From a virus, in IMG/VR virus record IMGVR_UViG_3300008216_000004, positions 1 through 42,809 of that record: DNA of 42,809 nucleotides; one strand, 5' to 3'. This document shows, piece by piece, positions 9,192-42,809 of this stretch (the stretch's first letter is position 1; every line of letters starts with the position of its first letter). Position numbers and translations under genes: made by a program. Under the pieces are notes generated by a model. That model had not been told where the DNA came from and did no database searches. It saw only the letters and a list, made by a program, of their open reading frames with translations.

Positions 9192-9431
9192 CTAAATGTC
9201 TTCGTCTGATACCCAATCTCCATCGGGATCATTAAGGATGGCAAGTATTTCTGCCTGATTATGAGGGGTCTTTCCTGCCAACCATGCTGGAGTGCTTCCC
9301 TCAAACTTAACGAAGGTTTCGGATTGGTCATTGTTCCACCTTAAAGTGTCGGCAGAGGTTTCCATTACGTCAGCAAAGACAATATCATCTGCCTCTTCTG
9401 CTGTGAGTATTATATAGGTTCGGTTGTTCAT
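9192..9431 (-). CDS. Conserved small protein next to LamG virion gene, unknown function
   Basis: A 79-residue acidic protein: MNNRTYIILTAEEADDI, then ETSADTLRWNNDQSETFVKFEG and an N-terminal-like end HNQAEILAILND. Proteins of this type occur after fibre or virion genes in marine podophages without an assigned role. Its ATG overlaps the stop of the 1482-residue gene (ATGA), so it is translationally coupled to it and may be a chaperone or assembly partner; that is inference. Confidence 0.55.
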   Translation of the reverse strand: MNNRTYIILTAEEADDIVFADVMETSADTLRWNNDQSETFVKFEGSTPAWLAGKTPHNQAEILAILNDPDGDWVSDEDI

Positions 9432-12400: not shown

Positions 12401-13876
12401 TTCTATAGACCCATTTCCCAGCACAGAGGTTGAAGAAGTTGTAGCCCTGTAAACGGAAAGATCAATATCATTAGCTGTTTCATCCTGTATAATTATACTT
12501 GTATCCCCCATTGTGAACCAAGCCTCAAGATCAGAAGCAAAACTTGTGGTGGATAATTTCTTTCCTTCTGCAATATCGGATATTTGTGATGCACTTAATT
12601 CTGTAGACCAAATGGCAAAATCATCCATCCTGCCGTCTAAATAACTACCAGAATCCTCATTAACATGCTGCCGGCCAAGAATTGGATTTAGAGAGGATTC
12701 ATAATTGGATAGAACAGGAGTTCCAAAGTTACTAGTTAGAGTTGATCCTGTAGCAACTCCATCTACATAGAAGACAGGAACCCCACTTGAATTAACAGTT
12801 ACAGCCACATGATGCCAACCTGTACCCGCATCCTGAAACGGTTGTGTTGAGGATAGGTATGATTTCTGTTGCGCCGAAGTTATATATAATGCAAATCCTA
12901 ATTTACCTGAAGTGGATGAAGTATTTGATCCAGCGTGGGATAGCCGTATGAAAGGCGCACCACCACTAGATGTTGGGGCTGTAGAGAATAAAAAATTAGA
13001 TTCTCCACCAGAGGGTCTTCCATCCGTGAACATCACCCACATACTTATTGAAAATCCAGATTGGAATACGCTTTCATAAGTATCAGAAAGTTCCACATAA
13101 TCATTATCTCCATCAAAGGTTATATAAGCAGTTCCTACTGGAGCCGTACCTGTTGTCGTCTGGGTTATCCCATAACCTATTGCATCATTACTATCAATTT
13201 CATTTAAAAGAGGAACTTCCGAAGCAACCTTTCCTGTAGCCGACATACTAGCTGACACACTCAAATTAGATTCAGCCAAATGTGATCTCTTTATTTCAGC
13301 TTCAGAGGTCATCCCCATTGCCATAGACAAAGAAGACTCTCCCAATCTTTCACCAGAGATACCTGTAGCTGTTAAATTGATTCCAATAACCAAGCTGGAT
13401 TCTCCCTGTATCCGAAGTTTAAGTGTCGGGGTGGAAACCATTCCAATTGCAAGAGTTAATTCCCCAACAGCCTCATGTGTTGTGATCATTGTCGGGGTAG
13501 CAACCATCCCGATAGAGAGATTTAAATCAGTTTCTCCTGTTGCACCCACCTCACCAGTTGCAACCATCCCGATTGAAACCTTGAAGTCATCGGACTGTGC
13601 TAATTTAAACCCACCTGAAATTGCTGTAGCATCCAGCGAGATACCAGCACTTAAATCAGATGAACCCTCACGTAAGAATCCAGAAGCGTTTGCCGATATA
13701 TTAAAATCAATTAAATGAAAGGAGATTGCATTGTACGTTTGTGGCCCACTTACCTCACGTACCAAATACCATAGCTCTTCATCTTCTGAATTAGCTGGGC
13801 TAGTTAAAATCTTATTGGGAGAGGCTATCCCAGCAAGTGTTCTTCTAGTCTTGTTGGTTCTACGAACAGAGGGCAT
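9428..13876 (-). CDS. Five-LamG-domain virion protein, probable fibre or adhesin
   Basis: A 1482-residue protein. Residues about 70-215 hold six or seven repeats of roughly 25 residues around L-L-IGM-AT (for example DLNLSIGMVATPT, ELTLAIGMVSTPT); more copies of this repeat lie at 700-765. Five concanavalin A-like LamG domains (Laminin_G_3 type) follow at about 250-456, 489-695, 768-978, 1015-1203 and 1240-1482, each with FDG-DYI near its start, W-H-VAV in the middle and DEF-A-W-S--L-S near its end. Three units end with W-RMEEG-GT--ADSS. Such domains bind glycans or cell surface polymers. The gene lies between the replication and head genes, apart from the gp17-like fibre. Confidence 0.85.
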   Translation of the reverse strand: MPSVRRTNKTRRTLAGIASPNKILTSPANSEDEELWYLVREVSGPQTYNAISFHLIDFNISANASGFLREGSSDLSAGISLDATAISGGFKLAQSDDFKVSIGMVATGEVGATGETDLNLSIGMVATPTMITTHEAVGELTLAIGMVSTPTLKLRIQGESSLVIGINLTATGISGERLGESSLSMAMGMTSEAEIKRSHLAESNLSVSASMSATGKVASEVPLLNEIDSNDAIGYGITQTTTGTAPVGTAYITFDGDNDYVELSDTYESVFQSGFSISMWVMFTDGRPSGGESNFLFSTAPTSSGGAPFIRLSHAGSNTSSTSGKLGFALYITSAQQKSYLSSTQPFQDAGTGWHHVAVTVNSSGVPVFYVDGVATGSTLTSNFGTPVLSNYESSLNPILGRQHVNEDSGSYLDGRMDDFAIWSTELSASQISDIAEGKKLSTTSFASDLEAWFTMGDTSIIIQDETANDIDLSVYRATTSSTSVLGNGSIEFGGHGTGNWIEANSNFQTTLRSGWSISMWVKLDYKELNEALFATYDGAAGQDYYSFQIVHSGIYNSGELLFQAKWAAVGGADPLISRYHTNSYFSEGENSWKHIVLTVSSSAVPTFYVNGTTTTTRTSENTSLTSISNYNGTQNLILGSFVVGGSSGTIEGFMDDVSLWNTVLTGTQVSALYNSGSGTSLSGSSNLKAWWKMEVDAKFGEADLVMATGMTAEATTSTTHSGASDLSVAFTVGATAIEGSIENGVADLDVTFTLEAEAIVGSTWENEYSVSCDGTDDYIDLNSNFSTVFDSSFSVAFWINLPEGQPTGSGHSTTSNSNIFGLSNSGNAHRFFGLIGRGGDSDAGKLRVYYKANGNQVQARSASAFFASGATGWVHVVITVEEANDGIKMYKNGSAVSVDEVDSTMSSVTMSYFAGNVDMTFGASNRGGTPNYEVDADFDEVAIFSAALSSSQVSTIYNNASVYDLDGHSNLEGWWRMEEGSGTSVADSSSNSNTATLVNGPTFSTNAPIVYENGYSLEFDGTNDHLSTSLVTNTHNLKNGFSASLWVKLDDVSTTQDFFGRYGNSTGRFYFGITGSNVRAAIGTSFDTSTLSHGMSTGTWYHVAYTFSGGSSGTFTYYLNGSSVGTISFTWTSDSGSYEPMHIGGLKNGSNLHQNPTNGKLDEFALYNSALSASDITAIYNSGAPVNQGLDSNLVAYWRMEENTGTTVADSSSNSNTATLTNGPTWSADVPLEAVDNTYSYLCDGADEYITLWDGSSGFDPESIGTNAFTFSGWIKLNTTTDNYSSIFFMGDSGNSHNYILLQYHPVEEGIKFLCRKGNAGGAYVATDDLVIDRWYHVACTRSGTTAKIYLDGVLVDEGTNTEYGVDVASGEGGTDDDGRMQLGAFGNSLSHHDGHLDECAFWDVALPSSAISQIYNAGRPIDLNTSAGLYTQSSNLTGWWRMEEGTGTSIADSSTGYSNAGTIQNSEGDGSGNFSTDIPT

Positions 13877-23574: not shown

Positions 23575-23943
23575 TTAAGCCTCTTGAGTGTTTCCAAATC
23601 CCACATACTGTTGGTTATTGCCGTTATAAAAATAAAGCCAAGCTTTATGTGGATGCTCGAATGAATCCAATACGCTTACAGATTCCCTGCAATACAGCAT
23701 TGGATGACCTTCAAGCCTGTCAATGTAAACCATGTCAGGTACAGCATACAATTCTCCATCAACCTGCCTTGCTCTCTTGCCAGCAGATATATTGTAAACC
23801 TTTGGAAGATTGGTATCCGTCCTGATGTATTTTTCCTTTGTCTTTGCGAACAAGTCAATCGGTACAGCCTTCGACATTTCGAGAACTGAATGATTGTAGT
23901 GTCCCTGACGTAAGGTTCCGTAAACAAATACTTTGTTGTCCAT
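23575..23943 (-). CDS. Gamma-glutamylcyclotransferase-like protein (GGCT/AIG2 fold)
   Basis: A 122-residue protein from ATG 23943; the frame is open 19 codons further but those codons do not fit the family. VFVYGTLRQG (5-14) is the diagnostic substrate loop. VDGELYAV (61-68) and DRLEGHPMLYCR (75-86) follow, with E78 at the position of the catalytic acid. The family cleaves gamma-glutamyl amide bonds to give 5-oxoproline, on free amino acids or on isopeptide links such as gamma-glutamyl-lysine. In phage and bacterial operons these enzymes occur with amidoligase and class II amidotransferase genes, and both of those are encoded here at 26987-29619. It lies in the early minus-strand block after DUF932. 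Confidence 0.85.
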   Translation of the reverse strand: MDNKVFVYGTLRQGHYNHSVLEMSKAVPIDLFAKTKEKYIRTDTNLPKVYNISAGKRARQVDGELYAVPDMVYIDRLEGHPMLYCRESVSVLDSFEHPHKAWLYFYNGNNQQYVGFGNTQEA

Positions 23944-24051: not shown

Positions 24052-24939
24052 TTAGTTCGCCAAGCAGAATTGCTTCAAGTCATTCATAACTCCACGCTGG
24101 AAGTCACGATTCCGACCCAGTTCCATACTGTTGAAACGATTCTCATCAGCACTCCGTGAACTGGTTTGACGGTAAACAGCATGATGCTGTTGGTACTCCG
24201 TGATAGCGTTGAGCAAGTCCCAACAGCTTTCACCCTTGTTACCAAGTCCAGTACGATACAGTTGACGGACAGTAATTCTTGTATTCTTGCTTCGGGAACT
24301 TTCACCCTTGAACCAACGGTTCAGGTGAGTGTCAATATCCTTGTCCTTCATTTCTGTACGCTGGAAGGTTTCAAACAGTTCCCGATTGTATTCAATCGTT
24401 CGCTTGATTCCAGTTATGTCAGCAACAGCATCAACCAAACGATCATGCTGGTTAACGGTATGCCTGACTCTGGCTCTTTGTCCGTCCTCCATAGCTGTCA
24501 TCCCATTTGAACAAACCAATCTCAACCAGCCCATTGTGAAGGTGGATGGCATGGTTCCATCAAAGCTAGTCCAGAAGTTTAACTGGAAGGATAGCCTGTC
24601 CCCAACTTTAGGATTCACATTGATGGTTTCAGGGATTTCAGCACGGATGAACAGTTTGCGTCCATTGTCCAGAAATCCAGCTTCCTTGAAGTCTGCTCCA
24701 AGATGTTGCCGAACATCATCAACATAACTAAAAGCTTCAATCGGTTGCAGAAGCTTGTAGCTGTCATTGTTGATGCAGAGCGGTTTTCCGTTACCGTCCA
24801 CGATAGCCTTGTATCCATCCATAGCCACTTGATCAGGCAGGAAACTCCAGACTGGTTTAGTGGTGTAGGGCTTGTCAGCCCCGATAGCTTCAAGAGCCTC
24901 GTTTACGTTTTTAGTGTCTGATATGTCTAATAATTTCAT
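24052..24939 (-). CDS. DUF932 phage/plasmid-like protein
   Basis: A 295-residue protein. KLLQPIEAFSYVDDV, GRKLFIRAEIPE, GDRLSFQLNFWTSFDGTMP and RLVCSNGMTA are the core segments of the DUF932 family found on phages and plasmids, whose biochemical role is not settled. Its ATG overlaps the stop of the preceding gene (TAATG), with AAAGGAC upstream. The coding sequence is less AT-rich than its neighbours. In this phage it is the largest early gene before RNA polymerase. Confidence 0.8.
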   Translation of the reverse strand: MKLLDISDTKNVNEALEAIGADKPYTTKPVWSFLPDQVAMDGYKAIVDGNGKPLCINNDSYKLLQPIEAFSYVDDVRQHLGADFKEAGFLDNGRKLFIRAEIPETINVNPKVGDRLSFQLNFWTSFDGTMPSTFTMGWLRLVCSNGMTAMEDGQRARVRHTVNQHDRLVDAVADITGIKRTIEYNRELFETFQRTEMKDKDIDTHLNRWFKGESSRSKNTRITVRQLYRTGLGNKGESCWDLLNAITEYQQHHAVYRQTSSRSADENRFNSMELGRNRDFQRGVMNDLKQFCLAN

Positions 24940-26192: not shown

Positions 26193-26310
26193 TATTATTC
26201 CTTTTATTGTTTAGTTAGGTTATTCTTCTTTATCTTCTACTCTATATTTCTGAAGTATGTTCTATTTGTATTAGAATCCTATCAGAATATTATTAGAATC
26301 TTATTAAAGT

Positions 26311-26395
26311 AAGGGGGAGGAGCATACTCAGTACCCCAACCTTTCTGCTCCGTGAGTAAGGAAAGAAAGAATAATAAAACCTCACTCTCCCCCTT
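26311..26395. repeat. Nested and competing inverted repeats (possible structured leader)
   Basis: AAGGGGGAG at 26311-26319 is the exact complement of CTCCCCCTT at 26387-26395. Inside, GGAGCA (from 26319) pairs with TGCTCC (to 26351), and TACTCA with TGAGTA in an interleaved order, so the inner pairings compete; GTGAG/CTCAC is a third option. On the plus strand a T run follows at 26403-26408. On the minus strand this would be the leader of the early transcript. An attenuator-like switch is possible. Confidence 0.5.
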
Positions 26396-26624: not shown

Positions 26625-26701
26625 CTGTACTTCGGCACTCGCAACGCATCCGCACACGCCCACAGGCACACACGCAGGGAGCGTTCCGCTATACATAGGT
26701 G

Positions 26702-26760
26702 CTTGTTTATAACCCTCTGTTTCGAGGTCTTGTTTAGAAGCCTATTTAGAAGCTTGTTTA
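26702..26760. repeat. CTTGTTTA repeats
   Basis: CTTGTTTA occurs at 26702-26709, 26729-26736 and 26753-26760, with TTTAGAAG copies between them. Spacing is 27 and 24 bp. It continues the repeat-rich character of this divergent region. Confidence 0.5.
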
Positions 26761-26986
26761 TAGCTAATGAGATCCATTAGGGAATCTTCTCAAAAAAAAT
26801 TTCTAATCCCCTCCATTAGCTCATCTTCTAACTGCTAAATGTGAATAACTTTTTCTCGCCATTGGCTCTTTTATATGGAATAGATAAAAACCTATGGCAA
26901 TCTATGGAAATAAACAAAGAAAGAACCTTTTCGATAAATACCTATGTATAGATATATAGGACAATACAAACACCAAAAAAATAAGA

Positions 26987-28711
26987 ATGAATAAACCAAT
27001 CATAAACCTAGTATGGAATAGAGTTAACAAATTCTATTCTTTAATTCAGATGGTAAAGATGCTATTGCAAACTGCCATCCTATCTAATAAGTCAATACCT
27101 ACGTTTGGTAGCAATGGAATAGCTAATACTATAAATCCATTACCGCTAGCCACTACGGTTAGACAGTTAGTCTATAATCTCAATAGTCTGACAGGTCTAT
27201 TCGGTAGACAGGTCAAAATAGTTAATGAGATTGAAATGTTATCTATATTAGATAGAACCTCTACTAAGTGGAAGTTGTTTGATAATAATAACAATATACA
27301 ATGTACACATATTGACTTACATCGCTCTCCAACCAGATATATACATCTATTAGCAGATTCGCCATCTGCAAGGAAACATCTATATATGAAACAAGGAATC
27401 TTCCTGTTTTATGATGATACCTTGAAAGGTGAAGGATGTAACAATGGTGAACAGGTCTACATCTCTTTAATGAGAAGGATACCTACAGTAGATACAGGTT
27501 ATAGCAGTTCCATTGCATTACCTGCCATTTGCAATGCGGAAAGCGATTATAATGGAACTAGATTAGGAAACCTAATTGATGTAGTGAAAACTATTCCTAA
27601 TGGTGAATATAGGTGGAGAAAAGATTGTACACTAGTAGACCATATAGATGTATATGATTATCATCACGGCTGGATTAGTGCAGATGAATCTATCTACTGT
27701 AGGGATATACATGACTACGTTCATCAGGATAATGCTAACTATTGCGATATAGACGACAATTATTATTATGATACAGCTAGGATGCCACAATCCGATCCTA
27801 TTAGAAGATGGAATGCAGGTATTCCCCTAGATTCAAAATTCCTATGTTTAAAAAAGAAGAGGAATATAGGTCTAGAAGAGTTTACAGCCACATCTAATCC
27901 ATTGAGCCATAGATTGTATGTATTAGAGATCGAATCCATGTTTGATAGCAATGCAGACAGAACAGAGTTTGTTCACGCAATGAATAACTCTTCAATTAAT
28001 GCGTACTGTAAACAAGATGGTAGTTTATCAGATAGTAGAGGATGCGAAGTTGCAACTGCACCCTACAATTTTGAAGCATCTAAAAAAATAGCTGTAGACG
28101 TTCTTTCTATAATACATAGATACAATGGTAAATGCTATGTGCAAGGGACAGGTCTACACATTCATCCTAATAAGAATGTGACTAGATTAGAGTTTTCCAA
28201 GATAGCGCAAATAGTATGTAGAGAGAATAGAGAGTACTGTCTGCAATTAGGAGAACGTCAAATATCATATAGCTGTCTGGAATTCACTAATGATAATAGG
28301 CTAGTAGACAGACATAACTATCCAAATAGATATGATGCTTGGAATGTTAGAACACATTCTTACGAGAATAGAATGTTTGGTGGAACAGATACGAATGCGG
28401 GAATCATTAAAGCTATAGAGACAGTAGAGTCTATGTGTGCATGGTCTAGGGAAACACCTATAATAGATATAATGTGTTATGGTAAAGAAGGAGGATTTGA
28501 TACCATACGTCACCCTAATCCTCATAAAGCATTAGAATCATGGGAAAGGTATGTGTCTAATCATATGGAGGTCTATCCAAACCTGTATGCATTCCTAGCA
28601 ACTAATAAGATGTTAAAGGAAGACCATGTAGGAAGAAATAACATCCTACCAAGTAAACCAAGCAGGAAACTATTCTTAAAGAAGCATATCCCAATCTTGA
28701 ACCTAGCATAA
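26987..28711 (+). CDS. Amidoligase-type COOH-NH2 ligase with long N-terminal extension
   Basis: A 574-residue protein. Residues about 309-490 match the amidoligase (Amidoligase_2, glutamine-synthetase-like) family: YVLEIES (E314, E316), KQDGSLSDSRGCEVAT (D344, E354), VQGTGLHIHPNK (H391, H393) and SYENRMFGGTDTN (E460, R462). Members are predicted to use ATP to form amide bonds, usually with glutamate or peptides. Residues 1-300 have no recognised family; a Cys/His/Asp-rich stretch (about 222-262, with YCRDIHDYVHQD and YCDIDDNYYYD) may bind metal. It is on the opposite strand to almost all other genes, AT- and CTAG-rich, and 20 nt ahead of a class II amidotransferase. The ribosome site at ATG 26987 is weak, so an internal start (Met23 or Met26) is possible. 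Confidence 0.85.
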   Translation: MNKPIINLVWNRVNKFYSLIQMVKMLLQTAILSNKSIPTFGSNGIANTINPLPLATTVRQLVYNLNSLTGLFGRQVKIVNEIEMLSILDRTSTKWKLFDNNNNIQCTHIDLHRSPTRYIHLLADSPSARKHLYMKQGIFLFYDDTLKGEGCNNGEQVYISLMRRIPTVDTGYSSSIALPAICNAESDYNGTRLGNLIDVVKTIPNGEYRWRKDCTLVDHIDVYDYHHGWISADESIYCRDIHDYVHQDNANYCDIDDNYYYDTARMPQSDPIRRWNAGIPLDSKFLCLKKKRNIGLEEFTATSNPLSHRLYVLEIESMFDSNADRTEFVHAMNNSSINAYCKQDGSLSDSRGCEVATAPYNFEASKKIAVDVLSIIHRYNGKCYVQGTGLHIHPNKNVTRLEFSKIAQIVCRENREYCLQLGERQISYSCLEFTNDNRLVDRHNYPNRYDAWNVRTHSYENRMFGGTDTNAGIIKAIETVESMCAWSRETPIIDIMCYGKEGGFDTIRHPNPHKALESWERYVSNHMEVYPNLYAFLATNKMLKEDHVGRNNILPSKPSRKLFLKKHIPILNLA

Positions 28712-28731
28712 ATAAAGGAGAATAAATTATA

Positions 28732-29619
28732 ATGTGTGTAATAATATACGAGAAAAGAAATAACGATAAGATAAACCTATCTGAATTGAAGACAGGTTTT
28801 GAAAATAATCCAGATGGAGCAGGTTACTGCATAAAGAAGGAAGATGGCACATTGGAAATAAAGAAAGGTTTCATGGACTTTAAAAGTTTCATGGCATCCT
28901 ATGGTAATGAAGACCATCGTAATGAAAAGTTAATCCACTTCCGAATCAGTACTAGCGGATTAGTCAATATGTCTAATTGTCATCCTTTCTATTGTGATAA
29001 TGGTAGGAAGATGGCCCTAGCACATAATGGCATCCTTCCTGTAGGGTTTCCTAGGTCTGCAAAGAAGTCAGATACAAGGAAGCTTGCAACGTCTATAATG
29101 CCTTCCTTAATAAACAAGCTAGGTAATACAAGCGTTAGATTCCTATTGAAACAAGCTATAGGTACTAACAACAAACTAGTGATAATGAAACAAGGTAAAG
29201 AGAATGAAACCTATATCGTAAATAAAGACCAAGGGACAACGATTGACGGTGTGTGGTTCTCTAATACTACCTGTCATGCCGCTAGGTATGTATATAATCC
29301 TGCTTATAATACCTACCAATCAGGAACATATAGAACCCTCTGGCCCGAAACCAAACAAACTAGAAAGGTAGAAAAGAAAGAGAAGAAGAATAATCCGGCT
29401 ATAGAAGTAGATGAAATAGAGTTAGATCATCTGCATTTATTAGATGTAGATAAAAAGACCTACTACACACAACATCAGCTAAATATGATATACCTAGATT
29501 ATCCTGAATGTGTAAGTATGGATTGCTACGAGATGGAAGATTATCTAAATAAGTCTGACCCTATCAGGTTTAACTATAATGATCATGGAAGAATGGAAAT
29601 AGGAGAACGATGCTTTTAA
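28732..29619 (+). CDS. Stand-alone class II glutamine amidotransferase (Ntn hydrolase)
   Basis: A 295-residue protein starting Met-Cys, so Cys2 becomes the N-terminal nucleophile after Met removal. Class II signatures are complete: NPDGAGY (26-32), HFRISTSG (69-76), NCHPF (82-86) and LAHNG (96-100). The family releases ammonia from glutamine, or acts on gamma-glutamyl amides. No synthetase domain is attached; residues about 210-295 form a charged extension with no known family. AAAGGAGAA lies 8 nt before the ATG and the gene follows the amidoligase by 20 nt, so the two act together. The same pairing is known for other phage amidoligase operons. Confidence 0.88.
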   Translation: MCVIIYEKRNNDKINLSELKTGFENNPDGAGYCIKKEDGTLEIKKGFMDFKSFMASYGNEDHRNEKLIHFRISTSGLVNMSNCHPFYCDNGRKMALAHNGILPVGFPRSAKKSDTRKLATSIMPSLINKLGNTSVRFLLKQAIGTNNKLVIMKQGKENETYIVNKDQGTTIDGVWFSNTTCHAARYVYNPAYNTYQSGTYRTLWPETKQTRKVEKKEKKNNPAIEVDEIELDHLHLLDVDKKTYYTQHQLNMIYLDYPECVSMDCYEMEDYLNKSDPIRFNYNDHGRMEIGERCF

Positions 29620-29704
29620 AGAGCAGACGTTTCTAAAGTGGATAGTTGAAAGAATAATTGAAATAGCTTTTGTAGTTTGGTTATTCTGGATAACAAGAAG
29701 ATAG
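29585..29704 (+). pseudogene. Amber-interrupted small membrane ORF
   Basis: ATG at 29585 starts MEEWK, is closed by TAG at 29600-29602, and the same frame then continues for 33 codons to TAG at 29702-29704. The continuation includes FLKWIVERIIEIAFVVWLFW, a plausible transmembrane helix followed by ITRR. It overlaps the amidotransferase 3' end by 35 nt. Either it is a broken gene, or it is translated from a rare start, or the amber is read through. TAG serves as a normal stop elsewhere, for example in the capsid gene. Confidence 0.35.
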
Positions 29705-29719
29705 AAAGGAAAAGAAAGA

Positions 29720-29875
29720 ATGAATCTTAATCTGTTAAAGCAAACTTGTTATAACTACAAACTGCCATTATGGAAAAGAATAGTTATAATGATAGTGTTT
29801 TGCAATGTGTTCAATAAAACAGATATAGCTAGTAAGGTTCTTTGGAAGATCGCACCAAACAGCTTGTCAGGTTAA
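29720..29875 (+). CDS. 51-residue unknown protein, last gene of the plus-strand cassette
   Basis: ATG at 29720 follows a purine-rich ribosome site (GGAAAAGAAAGA) and runs to TAA at 29873-29875. The product has a hydrophobic middle, WKRIVIMIVFCNVF (residues 18-31), with Lys on both sides, so it may be a membrane peptide. It ends 23 nt before the cassette terminator. No family recognised. Confidence 0.55.
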   Translation: MNLNLLKQTCYNYKLPLWKRIVIMIVFCNVFNKTDIASKVLWKIAPNSLSG

Positions 29876-29898
29876 AAGCATATAGAAGCAAACATAAA

Positions 29899-29939
29899 GG
29901 GAGTCTAGGTCTTAGATAGGTCTAGGCTCCTTTTTTTTT
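29899..29939 (+). terminator. Intrinsic terminator of the plus-strand cassette
   Basis: GGGAGTCTAGG pairs with TCTAGGCTCC through a short loop and the stem is followed by nine T (29931-29939). It ends the amidoligase-amidotransferase transcript, showing that the cassette is an independent unit. Confidence 0.85.
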
Positions 29940-30285
29940 GTGCAATGGTCTTGAAATGCCTTACACATAGGTAGAAATCCTTTCCTGATGGTCTAGAAGC
30001 CACAAAACCCTATCAAATAAGCTTTCCAATGGTTCAACCTATCCATTCTATCAAAAGAACCTTGCAAGATGCCTTATCGTTGGAATTTGGGCCTTCCCCT
30101 AATGCGTCCATGCATATTAAAAAGACAGGCCTGCGCTTTATAAAGTTATATGCGCGTAGGTTCAGGTTTCCCTTGTTTATAGCTTATATAGAACCTTAAA
30201 AGGAATAAGATGGAATCCGATAGGATGCTGTTTATAACTGCACATTAGCCGATCTAATAGGATTAAAAACATTGCATCTCTAATT

Positions 30286-30501: not shown

Positions 30502-30912
30502 TCACTCTAAAAATATATCCCAATTATTCCGATACGGTTCCCATTGGCTTTTACTATCCTTGGAAGGGAAGAAGACAAAGCTTTGCCTACCGATAGCACG
30601 GGTCATGGGGAGCAGATACCAAGTATTCTTTGGAGCGATATAGCAAGCCAGCACATCAACTTCCTTTGCTGTAGCATCTTCTTTAGCGGCGTGCATGATA
30701 CACTTATATTTGGTGGTTCTACCAAGGTCTACATCACTTCTTTTACTGGTTCCCTTTACTTGTACCCTGAAAGACTTGCCAACTTGATTTAGGACAATGG
30801 CATCGACCAGACTATAATCGCCTTCGGGGTTAAAGACATCAAACCCTTGTTTAAGTGCATCCATTCTGAACTGCACTTCATATATGGTTCCCATCTTCTT
30901 ATGGTTCTCCAT
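30502..30912 (-). CDS. PD-(D/E)XK nuclease-like protein (PDDEXK_5 / intron-endonuclease-type fold)
   Basis: A 136-residue protein with GTIYEVQFRMDALKQGFDVFNPEGD (E12, D32), LVDAIVL (D37) and FRVQVKGTSKR (Q51, K53), the layout of the small PD-(D/E)XK family in which the last acidic residue is Gln. VDVLACYIAPKNTWYLLP follows, also typical. It may cut host or competing DNA or act in recombination. The gene stands alone just after the late terminator, behind an imperfect palindrome (GTAGT-ACTAC, 30918-30935 region), so it needs its own promoter. ATG 30912 lacks a ribosome site; Met7 at 30894 is an alternative. Confidence 0.75.
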   Translation of the reverse strand: MENHKKMGTIYEVQFRMDALKQGFDVFNPEGDYSLVDAIVLNQVGKSFRVQVKGTSKRSDVDLGRTTKYKCIMHAAKEDATAKEVDVLACYIAPKNTWYLLPMTRAIGRQSFVFFPSKDSKSQWEPYRNNWDIFLE

Positions 30913-34412: not shown

Positions 34413-37400
34413 TTATGGTGTTCTAATTCTCCCATTAAATAGGTCTTTGCTATTATGCCAATCTATAATTTGGTTAATAACCCTACTTTGGAACTCTTCA
34501 TTCTTTTGTTCTTTGGCTTGTCCTGTATGTTTTGTCGCTTCCATATATGGTTTTTCCATATATTTATATTCTTTTAACCAAGGAAAGGATCGTTCCACTT
34601 GATCCAAGGCTCTTGACCTATATGTTTCAAATATCTTATTAACCATCCGTACCCTGAAATCGGATACACCTGTTCCTTTCGTCTGTTTTGTGGAAATACC
34701 TGCTAATCTTTGATATTCCTGCGTTCCGAAGAGGGTATAAAGAGCTTTCCGCAATGTAGGTGATCCTTTTAGGGGTCGAAATGTTGGGTCACTCATAATA
34801 GTTTTCCCAAGGGCAGTATTCAACTTGTCCAAATCACCCTCCCTTAAACGGATACTGCTGGTAATGTCATGCCAAACCTCGTAGGGGGCTGTATTATGGC
34901 CTAACTTCGCAAGTTCCCCAACATTCATGGTGACTTCCTGACCATCTACAGTATCAACCGTTACGTTGGGCCAAGGTTTTCCATTAAGGGAATCCAGATT
35001 GAGATTAACACTTCTACCATAGCGTTCAGGATTGGTTTGAAGTAATTTCAATCCTTTCGGATCGAAGGTGTATATTTCATAAAGTTCTCTTTGTACAGGA
35101 TCAGGCTTAACTTTCCTGATTGAGAGAGGTAGGAGCCATTCCAATAAACTAGCATTTACAGTAACTGGTTCAGAGAGTGCATTCCTATAAACTGGATTTT
35201 TACTGGCTAATGAAGGGATGGAGTCCTTAAAGGTCTGTAGCATTTCCTTATGTAATCCCTCCCATTCCCTATTTCGTTCCCTAACAAGGGGGTCTACAAG
35301 TGCTGTTTTTCTAAAGAGGGCTGGGATAAATCCTTTTGCAATCGGTTGGAAGAATCCTTTATGGAATCGTATTGCGGCTTCAGTCCCTCCCTCTAAATCA
35401 GTCAATCCAAGTCTTTGTTTCTCGTATTCGGTGTACATTCCAGAATCCGAAACTGTCTTGAGAATTTGGAGGTAATTTCTATTGGTTATTAGATTGTATG
35501 TGGATATTGCGAAAGCTTCCTTGAACACTAACAATTTTTGAAACAATCCATCCCTTACCTTTGGGTCTTGAATCATTTGCAATTGATTATGTATGTCCCT
35601 CATGTCGGCATTAAAGGCCAGAATTGCGAACCAAGGATCACCTCTATTATAAGTGTAGGATTTGATTGGGGTTCCATCCTTGTCTAATGTGATGACAGAA
35701 TATGGTTGATACCCTAAATTTTTCTTAATTTCAGCACGAATTTTATTATTGGCTACCAAACTCCCAGTAATAAAGACGCTTTGACCATTTGGCCCTTTTT
35801 CATGGTTATTTACTAATTGATGAGCGGCATACCATAACCCTGCTCCTGCCACCATTTTTCCACGAAGTTCTGCGGCAACCTCTCTATCAGCCGCTTTCAT
35901 AGCCACGCTATATTGATTTTGTCCAAAAACTGCATTCAATTTGGGGAAGCTCGCCGCTGGAAATGTCTTATGCAATTCCTTCATTAAATTTACTGGAGTC
36001 CTTACGAAAGGTACTGCCAGTTGTAATAAAGAAGAACCTACTCCACCTCCCTGCCTTGCTTTTTGAATATGAGCCGCCCAACCTTCAATGAAATACATCC
36101 ATGTTTGAGGGTCTTTCAGTCCAGTTTCTTTGGCGATTTGAGCATGATATTTAGAAAGTTCGTCTGGAAGACTTAAAGCATTTTGGAAAGGGCCAGATTC
36201 TCCGAATTTTAAAGAGGCTTCCCTTAATGGAGAGAATTTTTCCAATTCCATTTCAAATTCATAATTAAAAGCTTTTTGGAAGTCTTCTTTATTCATCTTC
36301 GCAAAAGCCGCCTGATTTATATCGCCAGTTTTAGCATCCCTAACCTCAAACTTTTCCAATGTTTTTAGGAATGTTTCCTGTTGTATCTCGCCTTCTGTCT
36401 TGTACCTTCCGTCTGGCGTTAGGACTTTTAATGTTTGATCCGCATCGTATTGCCTGAAAACTTCCTTCATCTGCTTACGTGTCAGATTGTTAATGGGTAA
36501 ATCCTTCAGGGCTGGACTGTTTATTCCAGTTGCTTCACCTACGGTGGCATTTCCAGATAACTTTGATTTTGAAAGAATATCATCAAATTGTTGACCATGC
36601 TTGGCAGACAATACGTTCCTTGCCCCCCATTGTTTGAAAATCTCATCAATCCACATCATAGTCTTGGCAGGAGCATTGACACCTTGCCTAATGCCATTGG
36701 CTAACCCCCCCAATGCTGAAAATTTTCCCTCGAAAGGCAGGTCTACTCTTTTCCCCATTTCTTCAATTACACTCTTACTGGACAATTGCCCCCTCATTGT
36801 TTTTGCCGCAGTCAGGGCTATAGCATTGATACTCCCCCATTTTTGACCGTTGTAGTAACCAAAGGTCAGTTGGTTTTGTAGGACACGCCCATATAGATTA
36901 CTTGTATCATTATCCTTGGCTATACGTGACCTGATGGCACTTATACTTTCAGGGGAATGTCTCCAGTATTTAGCCCAACCAAGATCAACGTATCCTAATC
37001 CTTCATTTATTTTACCACCTAATGCCCTCGTTCCTGATTGCCAGTAAGAGTTCATAAAGTTTCCAATAAATGTAATAGCCTGTGTAGGGGGTGCGGACAG
37101 AATGGAATTAACATAGTATTCAACTGTACCCCTCATAAATCTATCTATATACCCACCCATTCTCGCTCTTCCTGTAGCCGACCTTGTGAGTTCCTTGAGG
37201 AATGCTGTTGGATCATCTAGTGCGTCCAATACCTGCATTTGCTTTATGAATGCCGCACGATCCCCCCTGTTCTTGAGATATTGCCTAGCTATTTCAGGAG
37301 TTAATTCCCCATTACCATGAAGTTCCTTTAGGAATGCCTGATCCTCCCTTAACACAGTTCCCTTCGTTAAGTTGACAACCTCCATCAATTCCGCTCTTCC

Positions 37401-40400
37401 ATCTTTTCCAAGCAGTTTATTCTTCTGCATGGTCATGCCACGGTGATGCCATTCATATCGAAGGTTTCTGGCAACACGAAGAGCATCAATAGCTTGATCT
37501 CCAGCATTTGCCAGTTGAGCCGCTATTTTTACATTATCAAGATTATCTACACTCTTTTCCAATTCATGTCGGAACCTGTTCATAAAGGCCACGGCAATAT
37601 GGTCTACAACTCCCTGTCTCATCATAAGCTCTTGAGACATTTGACCAGCACCCACCAAGGTTGCATCAGTTTCCAATGCTCCTGCTCCATGTAACAAATT
37701 GTAGTATTCCAAGGAGTATTTCCCATAAGCGTTCATACCTTTCGAGTCAGACCCACCAAAAGGTTTGAATATAAAGTCTTTAGGATTCTTTGAGGCTAGA
37801 TCACCAAGGCCCAGCATAATAGCCCTTAAATCTGAATGATCCCCAATTTCATTGAAGTTGACAGCATTCTCAACCCATTCTTCAAATTCGCCTTCTTTAA
37901 GTTGCTTCACCCAATTTTTAAGAAATTCCGCTCTCTCCTTTTCAGGCTTTAGAGAGAATCCCTTGAAAGGCTCCATTGGCCCAGCAAGTGTTTCTACTGA
38001 ATGTTTCCCTTGTTCACCAACATCAGCCTTCGGTGCTTTCCCAGCCTTAATTTCAGGAACTCCTTCTCTACCATATTTTATTATGTCCTCTATTTTGTGG
38101 GGGGTTGTTCCCTTGGCTTTAGCAATCTTTCCTTGAATCTCATCCCAAGAATCCAGATAAACTTTATCAACCTTTGACCCTGCATTTACTTTTTTATTTA
38201 AAACTCCTTCATCCACCAATACCATTTTCTTTGTTCCTTTACGCATCCCCCAACTAGAAGGACGCATAAAATCTCCATGCAAAACGTCATAATTCAAAAT
38301 GTCTACAAGACCAATTTTTTCTAATTCTTTCTGTAGTTCTGGAGTGTGATTTTCCCAATCTTTAGCTGTAAATTTTTGAAAGGGTTTTAATTTTTTATTA
38401 ACCTCTTTGTCATTTCTTGGAACATACTCTACAACAATGTAGTTATCCCCCTTTTCGTATAGTTTTGCGATATGCTCCCCAAGCATCTGATCCTCTCCCC
38501 AACTATGAGCGTCATTTTGTTCTAATCCTTTGGGATTTTTTGCCACCTTTACTACTAAATCTTCCGTTCGGTATCCTTGTCTGCTAGAACCTCCACCCGA
38601 TAACTTCTTCAAGTCTTTTAAGTCTACTTTATTTTGTATTACTTTTTCAGTAGTCTCTTCATTGAATAGTTCTTTTACGATCCTCTCACCTCTTGCTTTT
38701 TGAGCCTTTACAGTCCCTTTATTGTGAGGATTAACCCACTCTTTTTCAGCTAGATTTTTACGATCTAAAGCTTCTTGTTCTTTTCCAGCCTTAACCTTTG
38801 CTTTATATTCTGCTAGCGATTGATTATAATCCTTCTGTTCTTGGGCTTCAGTTTTATATTTCTTACTCCCAATTTCCTTTTTGAAGGTCTTGGTGGTAGT
38901 GTCTAAAATATTTTCCCTATCCTTAACGCCCTTAATAACTTTAGTCTGTAAATTCTGTAAATCTTTAATGTATTTATTATGATCCCTCCTTTTCAAAACC
39001 CCTGTTACGACTGCACTTTGAGCTATTTCCAAATCTTCTTTTATCAGGAACCTGATTTCATTATAAAGATTCAATTCATCCCCTACAGCCCGAATATCAG
39101 TCAGTAATCCTTGAAGCTTGCCATTCTCTACATTATCAAAAATTCTTGTGTATTCAAATTCTGGAACTTCCTTACCTTTGGTTAGCTCTATGAATTGGCT
39201 AATGAGATTGCTGTTGGTTGATCTGAAAGAGGCTATTAACTCCTTGGCTTCATCTGTATCTTTTTGGAGTTTTTCCCTGTATGCCAACCGTGTTTGATCG
39301 TTGGGATCAATATCTTTAAGTTCCTTCTCCCACTCAACAATCTTACCCTTCAATCCTTTATGGATTTTAGCTTCTGTAATGAATGCCAAGGCATCCTTTG
39401 AATCATTAAACAGATACTTTGAGAAGCCGTGGAAACCTCCACCAAGAACCAAACCAAAAACAGAACTGATCCCAACTTCAGTAGGATTCAAACCAACTTG
39501 CCCTCTCAATTCTGCCCAATTTCTACTAGTACCCTTACCCCATTGATACATGAGATTATGCCCCCCACCCATCAATCCTCCTTGAGAAGCTGACCATAGT
39601 AATTCACGGTATTTGACTCCCTTTAAGAAACCTTTTGGAGCTTGGGCGAAAAAGACAGGTGCAAGAAGAGTATCAGCCAGAAGTTCCATCTGATTGATTT
39701 CATCCTGTTCACCCATTTCTATTCTTAAATTCTGGGCAAATTTAGAGGAATAGTATCCTGCTGGCATATTGATTGCGGCATAAGCTGATAGCCAACCTAT
39801 CGCAGTCCAAGGATGTCGAGCCGCCCATGCCTGTGCTGATCCAGTAGCCAAACTCCCTGTAACTATGTTTGTCCCCATTGGAACACCCATCTGTATTGCC
39901 AAGGATTGGAGATATTGAGGCATTGCGGCACTTGGATCAAATTTCGTTGCCTTCTCCATATAAAAGAAATCTGGAATTACTCCATCAACAGGGGTAGTCC
40001 ATCTCTTTAATGTATAAGAATTTCCCTCTGCATCCTTAAATCCTCCGTAACCACTTGTATTTATTTTATTGTAGGATTCTCCTTTTTCATTTCCGAATAT
40101 ATCCCTGTTTCCCATTACATCTTCAGGCAATACATACACCAATCCATCTGTACCCAATAGATAGTTCCATCCCTCTTCTAAATTCCCTTTACCATCAAAA
40201 ATATTCTTCCCTATTTTATCGTAGGATTCTCCTCCTTGAGTTCCTTCGTATGCTTTTACTTCAGATAAATCTGTTTCAATTTTACCACCTATCCCTGCTA
40301 ATTTGCTCAATTCTCCGATTGAACTTAAAATTTGATTTCTTAAAAAAGTATCAGGTTTCCTGACCTCCTCCCCTTCCTTCCTTTTTTCCTTGGCTATTGC

Positions 40401-40958
40401 CTCCTCTTCTTCATCTATTTTCTTATCTTCTTCAGCTAAAGCAGTTTGTAATTCAGCAAGCAATTCCTTTACGGATTTTATAATTTGAGGATCATCAGAT
40501 GGATTTTGTCCATGTTTAAGTCTATATGTTTCAAATGCGGATTTAGCTTTTTCGTATGCTTTAGTCCCCTTCACTAGCCTCTCTACCGCTTTAGTCCCAT
40601 CAGTGCCTGTTAAAGCTTCCAAAAGTGGATTCTCAAGTGCTTTATTAACCATCTGATTCCATTCTGGAGGACGGAGTTCATTAGTGATGGTTCGTGTTCT
40701 GTTCTGATTGGCTTGATCACCTGTAATTAAACCGCTTGATTCCAGCATCCCAAGGAATGAACTGATTTGAGGTTTAACGGTCATATTCTCATTGTGATAA
40801 CTCTCCTCAACTGGTCTCTTCTTTCTTCCCCACGTAAGTTCTGGGGGTAATGGAGGGAGTCCCATATTAGAAACCTCTTTAGCATTACGAAGAACTTCTT
40901 CGTCTACTTCATTGGGGACATTTTCAGGATCAACTTGATTATTTTTTGGAATAGCCAT
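34413..40958 (-). CDS. Giant internal virion protein (gp16-like) with embedded kinase-like domain
   Basis: A 2181-residue protein at the gp16 position; T7 gp16 is 1318 residues. Residues 150-210 are charged and helical; hydrophobic stretches lie at about 375-405, 425-445 and 455-510. Residues about 785-925 resemble the kinase-like domain of phage polyvalent proteins: GGGSSRQGY, LVVKVAKNPKGLEQND (K804), YIVVEYVP, VLHGDFMRPSSWG (D896) and KMVLVDEGVL (D916). The C-terminal half has long amphipathic helices and VRTPVNLMKELHK-type segments seen in other giant podovirus ejection proteins. No N-terminal lytic transglycosylase, present in T7 gp16, is seen. The ATG has no Shine-Dalgarno and follows gp15 by 12 nt. 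Confidence 0.85.
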   Translation of the reverse strand: MAIPKNNQVDPENVPNEVDEEVLRNAKEVSNMGLPPLPPELTWGRKKRPVEESYHNENMTVKPQISSFLGMLESSGLITGDQANQNRTRTITNELRPPEWNQMVNKALENPLLEALTGTDGTKAVERLVKGTKAYEKAKSAFETYRLKHGQNPSDDPQIIKSVKELLAELQTALAEEDKKIDEEEEAIAKEKRKEGEEVRKPDTFLRNQILSSIGELSKLAGIGGKIETDLSEVKAYEGTQGGESYDKIGKNIFDGKGNLEEGWNYLLGTDGLVYVLPEDVMGNRDIFGNEKGESYNKINTSGYGGFKDAEGNSYTLKRWTTPVDGVIPDFFYMEKATKFDPSAAMPQYLQSLAIQMGVPMGTNIVTGSLATGSAQAWAARHPWTAIGWLSAYAAINMPAGYYSSKFAQNLRIEMGEQDEINQMELLADTLLAPVFFAQAPKGFLKGVKYRELLWSASQGGLMGGGHNLMYQWGKGTSRNWAELRGQVGLNPTEVGISSVFGLVLGGGFHGFSKYLFNDSKDALAFITEAKIHKGLKGKIVEWEKELKDIDPNDQTRLAYREKLQKDTDEAKELIASFRSTNSNLISQFIELTKGKEVPEFEYTRIFDNVENGKLQGLLTDIRAVGDELNLYNEIRFLIKEDLEIAQSAVVTGVLKRRDHNKYIKDLQNLQTKVIKGVKDRENILDTTTKTFKKEIGSKKYKTEAQEQKDYNQSLAEYKAKVKAGKEQEALDRKNLAEKEWVNPHNKGTVKAQKARGERIVKELFNEETTEKVIQNKVDLKDLKKLSGGGSSRQGYRTEDLVVKVAKNPKGLEQNDAHSWGEDQMLGEHIAKLYEKGDNYIVVEYVPRNDKEVNKKLKPFQKFTAKDWENHTPELQKELEKIGLVDILNYDVLHGDFMRPSSWGMRKGTKKMVLVDEGVLNKKVNAGSKVDKVYLDSWDEIQGKIAKAKGTTPHKIEDIIKYGREGVPEIKAGKAPKADVGEQGKHSVETLAGPMEPFKGFSLKPEKERAEFLKNWVKQLKEGEFEEWVENAVNFNEIGDHSDLRAIMLGLGDLASKNPKDFIFKPFGGSDSKGMNAYGKYSLEYYNLLHGAGALETDATLVGAGQMSQELMMRQGVVDHIAVAFMNRFRHELEKSVDNLDNVKIAAQLANAGDQAIDALRVARNLRYEWHHRGMTMQKNKLLGKDGRAELMEVVNLTKGTVLREDQAFLKELHGNGELTPEIARQYLKNRGDRAAFIKQMQVLDALDDPTAFLKELTRSATGRARMGGYIDRFMRGTVEYYVNSILSAPPTQAITFIGNFMNSYWQSGTRALGGKINEGLGYVDLGWAKYWRHSPESISAIRSRIAKDNDTSNLYGRVLQNQLTFGYYNGQKWGSINAIALTAAKTMRGQLSSKSVIEEMGKRVDLPFEGKFSALGGLANGIRQGVNAPAKTMMWIDEIFKQWGARNVLSAKHGQQFDDILSKSKLSGNATVGEATGINSPALKDLPINNLTRKQMKEVFRQYDADQTLKVLTPDGRYKTEGEIQQETFLKTLEKFEVRDAKTGDINQAAFAKMNKEDFQKAFNYEFEMELEKFSPLREASLKFGESGPFQNALSLPDELSKYHAQIAKETGLKDPQTWMYFIEGWAAHIQKARQGGGVGSSLLQLAVPFVRTPVNLMKELHKTFPAASFPKLNAVFGQNQYSVAMKAADREVAAELRGKMVAGAGLWYAAHQLVNNHEKGPNGQSVFITGSLVANNKIRAEIKKNLGYQPYSVITLDKDGTPIKSYTYNRGDPWFAILAFNADMRDIHNQLQMIQDPKVRDGLFQKLLVFKEAFAISTYNLITNRNYLQILKTVSDSGMYTEYEKQRLGLTDLEGGTEAAIRFHKGFFQPIAKGFIPALFRKTALVDPLVRERNREWEGLHKEMLQTFKDSIPSLASKNPVYRNALSEPVTVNASLLEWLLPLSIRKVKPDPVQRELYEIYTFDPKGLKLLQTNPERYGRSVNLNLDSLNGKPWPNVTVDTVDGQEVTMNVGELAKLGHNTAPYEVWHDITSSIRLREGDLDKLNTALGKTIMSDPTFRPLKGSPTLRKALYTLFGTQEYQRLAGISTKQTKGTGVSDFRVRMVNKIFETYRSRALDQVERSFPWLKEYKYMEKPYMEATKHTGQAKEQKNEEFQSRVINQIIDWHNSKDLFNGRIRTP

Positions 40959-40970
40959 TTTAAAAGTTCT

Positions 40971-42809
40971 TTAGTTTCCCAATTGTTCTATAGCTAGTTT
41001 TAAAGCTGTCTTTTGCGAGTCACTCAGCTTTTCAAAAAACTCTGTTTTTTTATAGGCAATGTTCCTATCAATAATGAAACCCAGAAATTGTTTTTGTTGT
41101 GTAGAAAAAACGAGGGTTTCAGTTTGTTTTCCATCTTTTATCTCGTATTTGGATGGGATTACAAGTTGCCTTTGCAGTACCCCTAACGCATTAAGCATTT
41201 CCCGATCCCCTATGGCATTAACATCGTCCCAAAGTTCATTTATAATTTTATCTCTAACTTTGTCTTCATGTTCCTTCCACGATCCAGATGTATCCCCTGC
41301 TTCTAAATTTCCAATATACAGTTCTTGTTCTTCAAGTAACCACTTTTCAATTTTTTTATTTACATAAATAGTAGCCAAACCCTGCACTTTCCGCATTTGG
41401 TTCAAAGTAATCTCATTATTTTTGCCTTTACCGAATACCTCATGCAAGGTTTCCCCAAAATCAAAATATGGCCCAGCAGTTTTAGCTATAGTGGCTGGAA
41501 CAAACCCTTGAGGTTGTTGTTCAAAATAATTATAAAGGGAATCAATTTGTTCTTTATTTCGGCGGTCAGTTATAAAATCATTGAAACTTTTATTGGTAAC
41601 GTCCGTTGTTGTTATAGCATCCCATTGCCCATTAGTGATTACTCCAGCCTGATGTGCTTCTCGCAGGATTTTAAAATCCTCACCACTTAAAGGCGACCCC
41701 TCTTCACTCCGAATAAAAATATCCTCGTAATGTAACCAAAGGTCTTCTTCAACTACTGAAATATTGTCTGATTTATAGTCTTTAAAATTATCCCGAATCC
41801 ATGCCGCTCCTACATCCCAATCAATATTGAAATTAGGATCATCTTCCAGCACCCCCAATAATTCAAAAAGTTGCCCTTTAGAGGCTCCAGTTGTTCCATA
41901 GGTTCGCATAGCCAATATGGATAAACCTCTCGTACTTCTTTCCTGCGCCGCTACTTCGGCTTTATCAAAAGCAGTATAAGCATCTTGACGTAGGGTATCG
42001 GTTATTTTCCCAGTACCAAATATAACTCCATTATCTAATTTTAGAGCCAATAAATCTTCAAAAATACTTTTGGCTTTATCTGCTCCACCATAATCACGGC
42101 TGGAAGCTACTGTACTTATTAGATGAGGGATGACCCCATGCTCTAAAAAGAACTCCTCATTCCCTTGGAAATATCCAGCAGGGTCTTGTAACCATTGGGA
42201 AAGAAGATACTTTGCATCTGGTTCCCGATGAGCATCCCCTTGGGTTGAAATATATTGATCAAAAAGATCAACCCCTACCTGTGACCAAGCGTGTTTACCC
42301 CTTTCAGTATAATCATCTATAGATTTCTTTGTCAGTATCTCCTCAATGTGACTTTCAGATTCATTCAGTAGGGTATTCAAGGTGTTTAGTGCATAACTAC
42401 TACCCCTGATAACTTTATATTCATCATTATCAGCTAATTTTTCTCTACTTATTTCCCTAATTTCTTCAAAGGATAGCCCACTTCCCATTGCTTCATTCAA
42501 ATCCTCTTTATAACTCCCTGCCAAACGGAAAGCTCTGGCATCAAGTGAACCAATTCTGAAAGCTTGAGATTGCCAAGGCTCCATCTTTCCTCCCATTATA
42601 AGTTTCCTTATAACGCCTAGACTTTTCTTATTCTTTGTTTGGAGTCCCTTGTAAACTTTTTCGTATTGTTCGGGATCAGTTTCATATAGATTTTTTCCAT
42701 ATTCCCTGAATTTTTGAAAGCTCTTGTTTCTATTCGCCGCATCTGACGCAAAGTTCTGCTGTAATGTTTGAGACAATCTACCCAGACTCTGTGAAGTTCC
42801 ACTCCACCA
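40971..42809 (-). CDS. gp15-like internal virion protein, main part (continues at 1-225)
   Basis: This is the bulk of the 646-residue protein whose true ATG lies at 225 across the circular join; a TTG at 42776 is only an apparent start. It is charged and helical throughout, with SQAFRIGSLDARAFRLAGSYKEDLNE and repeated Trp-containing helices, as in podovirus core proteins. In T7, gp15 and gp16 form the tube through the periplasm during ejection. The last 123 bases repeat the window start. Confidence 0.8.
   Translation of the reverse strand, partial: WWSGTSQSLGRLSQTLQQNFASDAANRNKSFQKFREYGKNLYETDPEQYEKVYKGLQTKNKKSLGVIRKLIMGGKMEPWQSQAFRIGSLDARAFRLAGSYKEDLNEAMGSGLSFEEIREISREKLADNDEYKVIRGSSYALNTLNTLLNESESHIEEILTKKSIDDYTERGKHAWSQVGVDLFDQYISTQGDAHREPDAKYLLSQWLQDPAGYFQGNEEFFLEHGVIPHLISTVASSRDYGGADKAKSIFEDLLALKLDNGVIFGTGKITDTLRQDAYTAFDKAEVAAQERSTRGLSILAMRTYGTTGASKGQLFELLGVLEDDPNFNIDWDVGAAWIRDNFKDYKSDNISVVEEDLWLHYEDIFIRSEEGSPLSGEDFKILREAHQAGVITNGQWDAITTTDVTNKSFNDFITDRRNKEQIDSLYNYFEQQPQGFVPATIAKTAGPYFDFGETLHEVFGKGKNNEITLNQMRKVQGLATIYVNKKIEKWLLEEQELYIGNLEAGDTSGSWKEHEDKVRDKIINELWDDVNAIGDREMLNALGVLQRQLVIPSKYEIKDGKQTETLVFSTQQKQFLGFIIDRNIAYKKTEFFEKLSDSQKTALKLAIEQLGN
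42687..42809. repeat. Exact 123-bp copy of the window start (circular overlap)
   Basis: Bases 42687-42809 are identical to 1-123. Since the repeat lies inside a gp15-like gene that reads through in frame when the ends are joined, this is an assembly overlap of a circular contig rather than a biological terminal repeat. Confidence 0.92.

Follow-up and report, generated by a model that had tools for sequence, protein, structure and literature searches.

An amidoligase-GATase gene pair has been described in the OM43 phages MEP401 and MEP402 (MEP401 gp05-gp06; PMC10580990), and a podophage "peptidoglycan modification module" in phiEco32, LUZ24, RIO-1, and PSA-HP1 (PMC5498523, PMC11945000). The pair of Mycobacterium phage Marvin (gp105-gp106) has been published as well, with both genes annotated only as "glutamine amidotransferase domain." Here, we analyzed the whole 42,809-nucleotide stretch of IMG/VR record IMGVR_UViG_3300008216_000004 (the window), which comes from a T7-like phage. 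Its + strand cassette at 26987-29939 had been read in an earlier note, made from the sequence alone, as a self-contained amidoligase plus class II amidotransferase unit. This cassette is a new, divergent member of the described phage module, with an unusual genome position. MEP401 and MEP402 have the same gene order and strand, encode homologous proteins (34% identity for the amidotransferase), and likewise carry the pair in the early region, but they belong to Zobellviridae and are not T7-like, their pair runs with the early genes, and the ligases are only about 20% identical. In Marvin, the homologous pair is located at one genome end and is followed by a small ORF; however, Marvin is a Marvinvirus and not T7-like. 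No cyclotransferase (GGCT) gene was found in the examined stretch around gp105-gp106. The podophage module has Amidoligase_2, GATase, and GGCT in common with this phage, but additionally contains a COOH-NH2 ligase and an ATP-grasp enzyme. We found no COOH-NH2 ligase (PF14395) in the closed genome and no ATP-grasp enzyme in this genome.

Bases 1-123 of the window are identical to bases 42687-42809. Given this exact 123-base overlap of its ends, the contig represents a complete genome, closed at 42,686 bp and circularly permuted so that it opens at the gp14/gp15 boundary. The T7-like markers include the RNA polymerase (RNAP), the portal, a T7-type SSB, a T7-type primase/helicase, a gp13-like protein, and a T7 tail-fibre N-terminus. 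T7 gene order breaks at the contig ends, which places the expected physical termini of the genome at around 29.9-30.5 kb, following TerL and a small endonuclease. LUZ100 likewise has its end repeats after TerL; no terminal repeat was located in the genome studied here. The endonuclease is of PDDEXK_5 type (30502-30912, - strand) and just follows TerL, and LUZ100 also has an endonuclease beside TerL. With ends at this position, the cassette would occupy the far left of the genome and be transcribed outward, divergently from the early block. This left-end, divergent position is the reason why the cassette may be made early. A search for sigma-70-like sites returned 16, compared with 19.9 expected, which is not above chance, and a hunt for T7-type phage promoters in this genome gave no convincing repeated motif. 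Two - strand genes elsewhere in the genome encode very large proteins. The 1482-aa product of 9428-13876 has five Laminin_G_3 (lectin-like) matches and probably serves as a large protein for host binding or virion decoration; its gene is situated between those of the exonuclease and the portal, and a Gp80-type fibre protein is encoded nearby. The 2181-aa internal virion protein (34413-40958) had no Pfam match and is far larger than the LUZ100 gp16-like protein.

The cassette comprises the 574-aa ligase gene (26987-28711, + strand) and the 295-aa gene of a stand-alone class II glutamine amidotransferase/Ntn hydrolase (GAT-II; 28732-29619, + strand), the latter preceded by a Shine-Dalgarno sequence. 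The two tiny membrane-type ORFs proposed to follow them were borne out in part. The ORF at 29720-29875 (+ strand) has a start codon and encodes 51 residues with a hydrophobic stretch, and a search for its relatives found none. The second (about 29595-29705, ...FLKWIVERIIEIAFVVWLFWITRR) is without a start codon. The strong terminator that had been proposed is located at 29896-29934 (+ strand; 17 pairs, T-rich tail, -24.6 kcal/mol, z -4.8) and closes the + strand unit. All other credible genes lie on the - strand, as the earlier note had it. The GC content of the cassette region is 35-36%, compared with mostly about 42-44% in the rest of the genome, and this difference suggests that the cassette was acquired. 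The divergent intergenic region contains three 21-base direct repeats with a spacing of 11 bases (26269-26311). GCTTGTTTATARC-like 13-base repeats occur on both cassette flanks (26701-26713, 26752-26764, and 30171-30183, + strand), but we dropped them as a flanking signal because 3 of 100 shuffles yielded an equal number of matches in the window.

The ligase became recognizable only through the relatives of its neighbor, GAT-II. Pfam gave no PF12224 match even at an E value of 10, so the gathering cut-off was not reached, whereas 45 of 49 records of the ligase's relatives exceed it. In PHROGs, the ligase weakly matched phrog_16683 (2.4e-4). The same family is matched by MEP401 gp05, Marvin gp105, and the amidoligase of MW202733; of these three, only the MW202733 protein exceeds the PF12224 cut-off, with the other two falling just short. 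When scored against a profile of 99 relatives from which it had been left out, the ligase of this phage reached 83.8 bits, and the runner-up ORF of the same genome scored 2.9. The compared relatives score 150-373, and by this measure the ligase is an outlier among them. With the ligase as query, tblastn retrieved nothing from 50,697 phage records and nothing from the viral contigs, and a PDB search with a small ligase alignment gave a chance match only.

The catalytic domain spans about residues 310-555 (27914-28651) and contains the motifs LEIE (313-316), QDGSL, GLHIH, and ENRMFGGT. These, like the GAT-II motifs given below, are found in the ORFs where the earlier note had placed them. The conserved residues are E314, E316, D344, S346, E354, H391, H393, R424, Y449, N453, E460, and R462. 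The residues at E314, D344, E354, G389, H391, R424, E460, R462, and F464 are invariant in 68 relatives, and those at E316, S346, H393, and N453 are common to most of them. Only one conserved motif residue among those checked was lost, namely the glycine of the GxExE strand motif, which is Val here. One alignment had placed this glycine motif at G295, but the profile alignment and the structural model favor residues 312-316, with Gly replaced by Val.

In the AlphaFold2 model, pLDDT is 85-97 over most of residues 310-555, and residues 34-310 are poorly modeled. Residues 311-318 form the first strand, which supports the assignment of E314 and E316 as the ExE pair, in line with the earlier note. 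Foldseek matched the model of the C-terminal domain to glutamine synthetases (GS), YbdK, and gamma-glutamylmethylamide synthetase, and the ligase model also to viral amidoligases, including that of Salinivibrio phage CW02. The whole-chain TM-scores were low (0.22-0.29 by query length), partly due to the poor modeling of residues 34-310. The GS-like fold with an intact site that the earlier note had called for is therefore present in the model. The ligase thus belongs to the Amidoligase_2 (PF12224) superfamily by profile homology, with a GS-like fold and the ExE, DGS, HxH, and ExR residues, one glycine being Val, and without reaching the Pfam gathering cut-off. By homology, it is established as a predicted carboxylate-amine ligase, with the fold and motifs for carboxylate activation by ATP and joining to an amine.

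GAT-II carries Cys2, NCHPF, and LAHNG. It fell below the family cut-off for PF13230 (3.3e-4), and it matched phrog_25883 at 1.3e-21 and the profile of its relatives at 199 bits. In 48 sequences, the glutamine-site residues C2, R71, T74, N99, and D114 are invariant and G100 is nearly so, with Ser at position 100 in one relative. The protein aligns with GlmS up to the Asn-Gly, its model has pLDDT mostly >90 over residues 1-180, and Foldseek matched it to GlmS, GFAT, and EgtC. The Cys nucleophile, Arg/Thr, the Asn-Gly of the oxyanion hole, the Asp, and the fold of a class II glutamine amidotransferase are all present. Homology establishes GAT-II as a predicted glutaminase or gamma-glutamyl amidohydrolase, with the N-terminal nucleophile Cys and the residues for binding glutamine or a gamma-glutamyl group. 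Profile scores, folds, and motif residues of both proteins thus uphold the identities first read from the DNA.

The low GC content (35-36% versus about 42-44%) and the ligase itself, which is among the most divergent of 85 and carries the Gly to Val change, would also fit an inactive or decaying acquired module that was retained by chance at the genome end. However, neither frame is interrupted across about 870 codons, the remaining checked residues of the conserved set are intact, and the genes have a shared terminator and a Shine-Dalgarno sequence before GAT-II. We consider decay very improbable.

The ligase-GAT-II pair is almost obligate. In viral contigs, the ligase adjoins GAT-II on the same strand in 77 of 80 GAT-II loci and precedes it in every case except one, and the three loci without a ligase begin 36, 168, and 128 bases from the contig start. 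Conversely, GAT-II accompanies the ligase in 79 of 80 ligase loci, and 36 of 38 loci in bacterial genomes have both genes. The pair therefore does co-occur in other phages, as the earlier note had anticipated. The pairwise distances of the two proteins are correlated (r = 0.77; ≤0.13 in 2000 permutations), to which shared ancestry alone contributes. At least 528 GAT-II and at least 580 ligase relatives were confirmed in the viral contigs. In 33 viral loci of the two overlapping sets, GAT-II has an ATP-grasp gene nearby; ATP-grasp and GGCT showed zero overlap in compact loci around the pair, but chance expects about one, so we do not propose mutual exclusion. Among actinobacterial carriers, eleven Nocardia loci have tandem double ligase-GAT-II pairs, and a related single-pair locus of Labedaea, possibly an integrative element, has DprA, SSB, and DUF4192 genes. 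The only neighbors of the actinobacterial pairs were DprA, SSB, and DUF4192, which gave no hint of a substrate.

This near-obligate 1:1 adjacency, with the ligase upstream in the viral sets except at one locus, is what would be expected if GAT-II hydrolyzed glutamine and passed the ammonia to the ligase, which would convert a host or cell-wall carboxylate into a carboxamide, as in MurT-GatD or LtsA, with GGCT unrelated. The co-inheritance (r 0.77), the invariant glutamine-site residues, and the nearest solved folds to GAT-II, which are the glutaminase domains of GlmS and GFAT, also fit such amidation. On the other hand, GS-fold enzymes can themselves use free ammonia or amines, no GS-fold ligase is known to draw its ammonia from a separate GAT partner, and the GAT-II-GGCT fusions described below would be left unexplained. 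We regard amidation as possible but on balance unlikely.

The fusions involve a third enzyme that the earlier note had missed and that makes "self-contained" a doubtful description of the cassette. In the divergent early gene block, 3 kb from the cassette and on the opposite strand, lies a 122-aa GGCT gene of the gamma-glutamylamine cyclotransferase (GGACT/AIG2-like) family (23575-23943, - strand). Its product matched PF06094 with 61.2 bits (1.8e-16; cut-off 22.8) and has the YGTLR.G motif and the catalytic Glu, which aligns with the position occupied by E in 3jub and by Q in the mutant 3jud. Among solved structures, its best relative is the AIG2-like protein 3jub, which we take to be mammalian GGACT. 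By homology, it is established as GGACT-like, the predicted type that cuts gamma-glutamyl amines. The adjoining DUF932 gene (24052-24939, - strand) has relatives in two other carriers of the pair.

GAT-II and GGCT domains form one protein in phages C75C1 and MW202828, which have the same three activities as this phage, whereas the two domains are encoded here by separate, opposite-strand genes. The C75C1 fusion, which is the only phage record matched by the GGCT of this phage, adjoins an annotated amidoligase. The MW202828 fusion adjoins a 574-aa protein that was missed by Pfam and found by the ligase profile. In four further viral loci, GGCT directly follows GAT-II. The fusion to GAT-II in relatives makes it probable that GGCT and the pair act in one pathway, although only 3 of the 50 records with the pair contain GGCT.

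EgtA/EgtC in ergothioneine synthesis and PuuA/PuuD in putrescine metabolism each pair a GS-fold ligase with an amidotransferase-type hydrolase. Because of these precedents, we favor gamma-glutamyl writing and erasing over ammonia channeling, which would rank close behind; the ligase-GAT pairing would fit it too. The cassette and GGCT would then form a phage amide-bond editing unit using gamma-glutamyl/amide chemistry, in which the bond made by the ligase can be cut by GAT-II and the cyclotransferase. In this scheme, a small amine or peptide would receive a gamma-glutamyl (or similar) amide from the ligase, while hydrolysis or cyclization of gamma-glutamyl amides would fall to GAT-II and GGCT. 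We give this editing unit about an even chance. Its most likely target would be host cell-wall peptides or their precursors, with the effect of excluding other phages; this cell-wall and superinfection-exclusion idea, also raised in the earlier note, has already been published as a proposal.

The same chemistry could instead serve small-molecule metabolism, with gamma-glutamyl amines (polyamine- or glutathione-like) made or cleared to feed the phage or to blunt host stress or defense, and with no cell-wall role. The ligase model does resemble gamma-glutamylmethylamide synthetase and YbdK, and small gamma-glutamyl amines are the substrates known for the GGACT family. However, no amine-metabolism gene was seen beside the cassette, and one actinobacterial pair is found among DprA and SSB genes rather than in a metabolic operon. 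We consider this metabolic role doubtful. In a further variant of the preferred editing scheme, which we hold to be improbable, the ligase with its 300-residue N-terminal region would attach a gamma-glutamyl group or a peptide as a tag, either to an envelope molecule or to a protein of the host, and GAT-II and GGCT would act as dedicated erasers. No DNA-hypermodification gene, which could have hinted at a base-modification role, was seen among the scanned proteins of this phage.

The pair is rare in T7-like phages, yet not unique to this one. Of 50 pair-bearing records, none contains a T7-like RNAP scoring above the cut-off, in agreement with the view that such a unit is not standard in T7-like genomes; any implied uniqueness is contradicted by two other T7-like carriers. 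One is Podoviridae sp. ctgrD200 (MW202733; RNAP PF00940 3e-99), which compares with this phage at 49% for TerL and 45% for the capsid. Its pair lies in the early region and shares its strand with almost every other gene, its ligase is recognized by Pfam, and no GGCT was found in it. The other is a short contig from a Pseudomonadota MAG (L191) with the ligase, GAT-II, and a T7-like RNAP. In both, the pair lies upstream of the RNAP on the same strand. An RNAP-based search of the viral contigs found no close relatives of this phage.

As this genome shows, the five-gene "peptidoglycan module" can be reduced to the ligase, GAT-II, and GGCT, without the ATP-grasp enzyme or the COOH-NH2 ligase. With just three genes in a T7-like genome of 43 kb, this compact version offers a small and tractable system for finding the product. 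If write-and-erase tagging proved true, it would be a phage-encoded modification unlike any characterized phage takeover system. The presence of the pair in hundreds of viral contigs points to a conserved two-enzyme reaction in phages.
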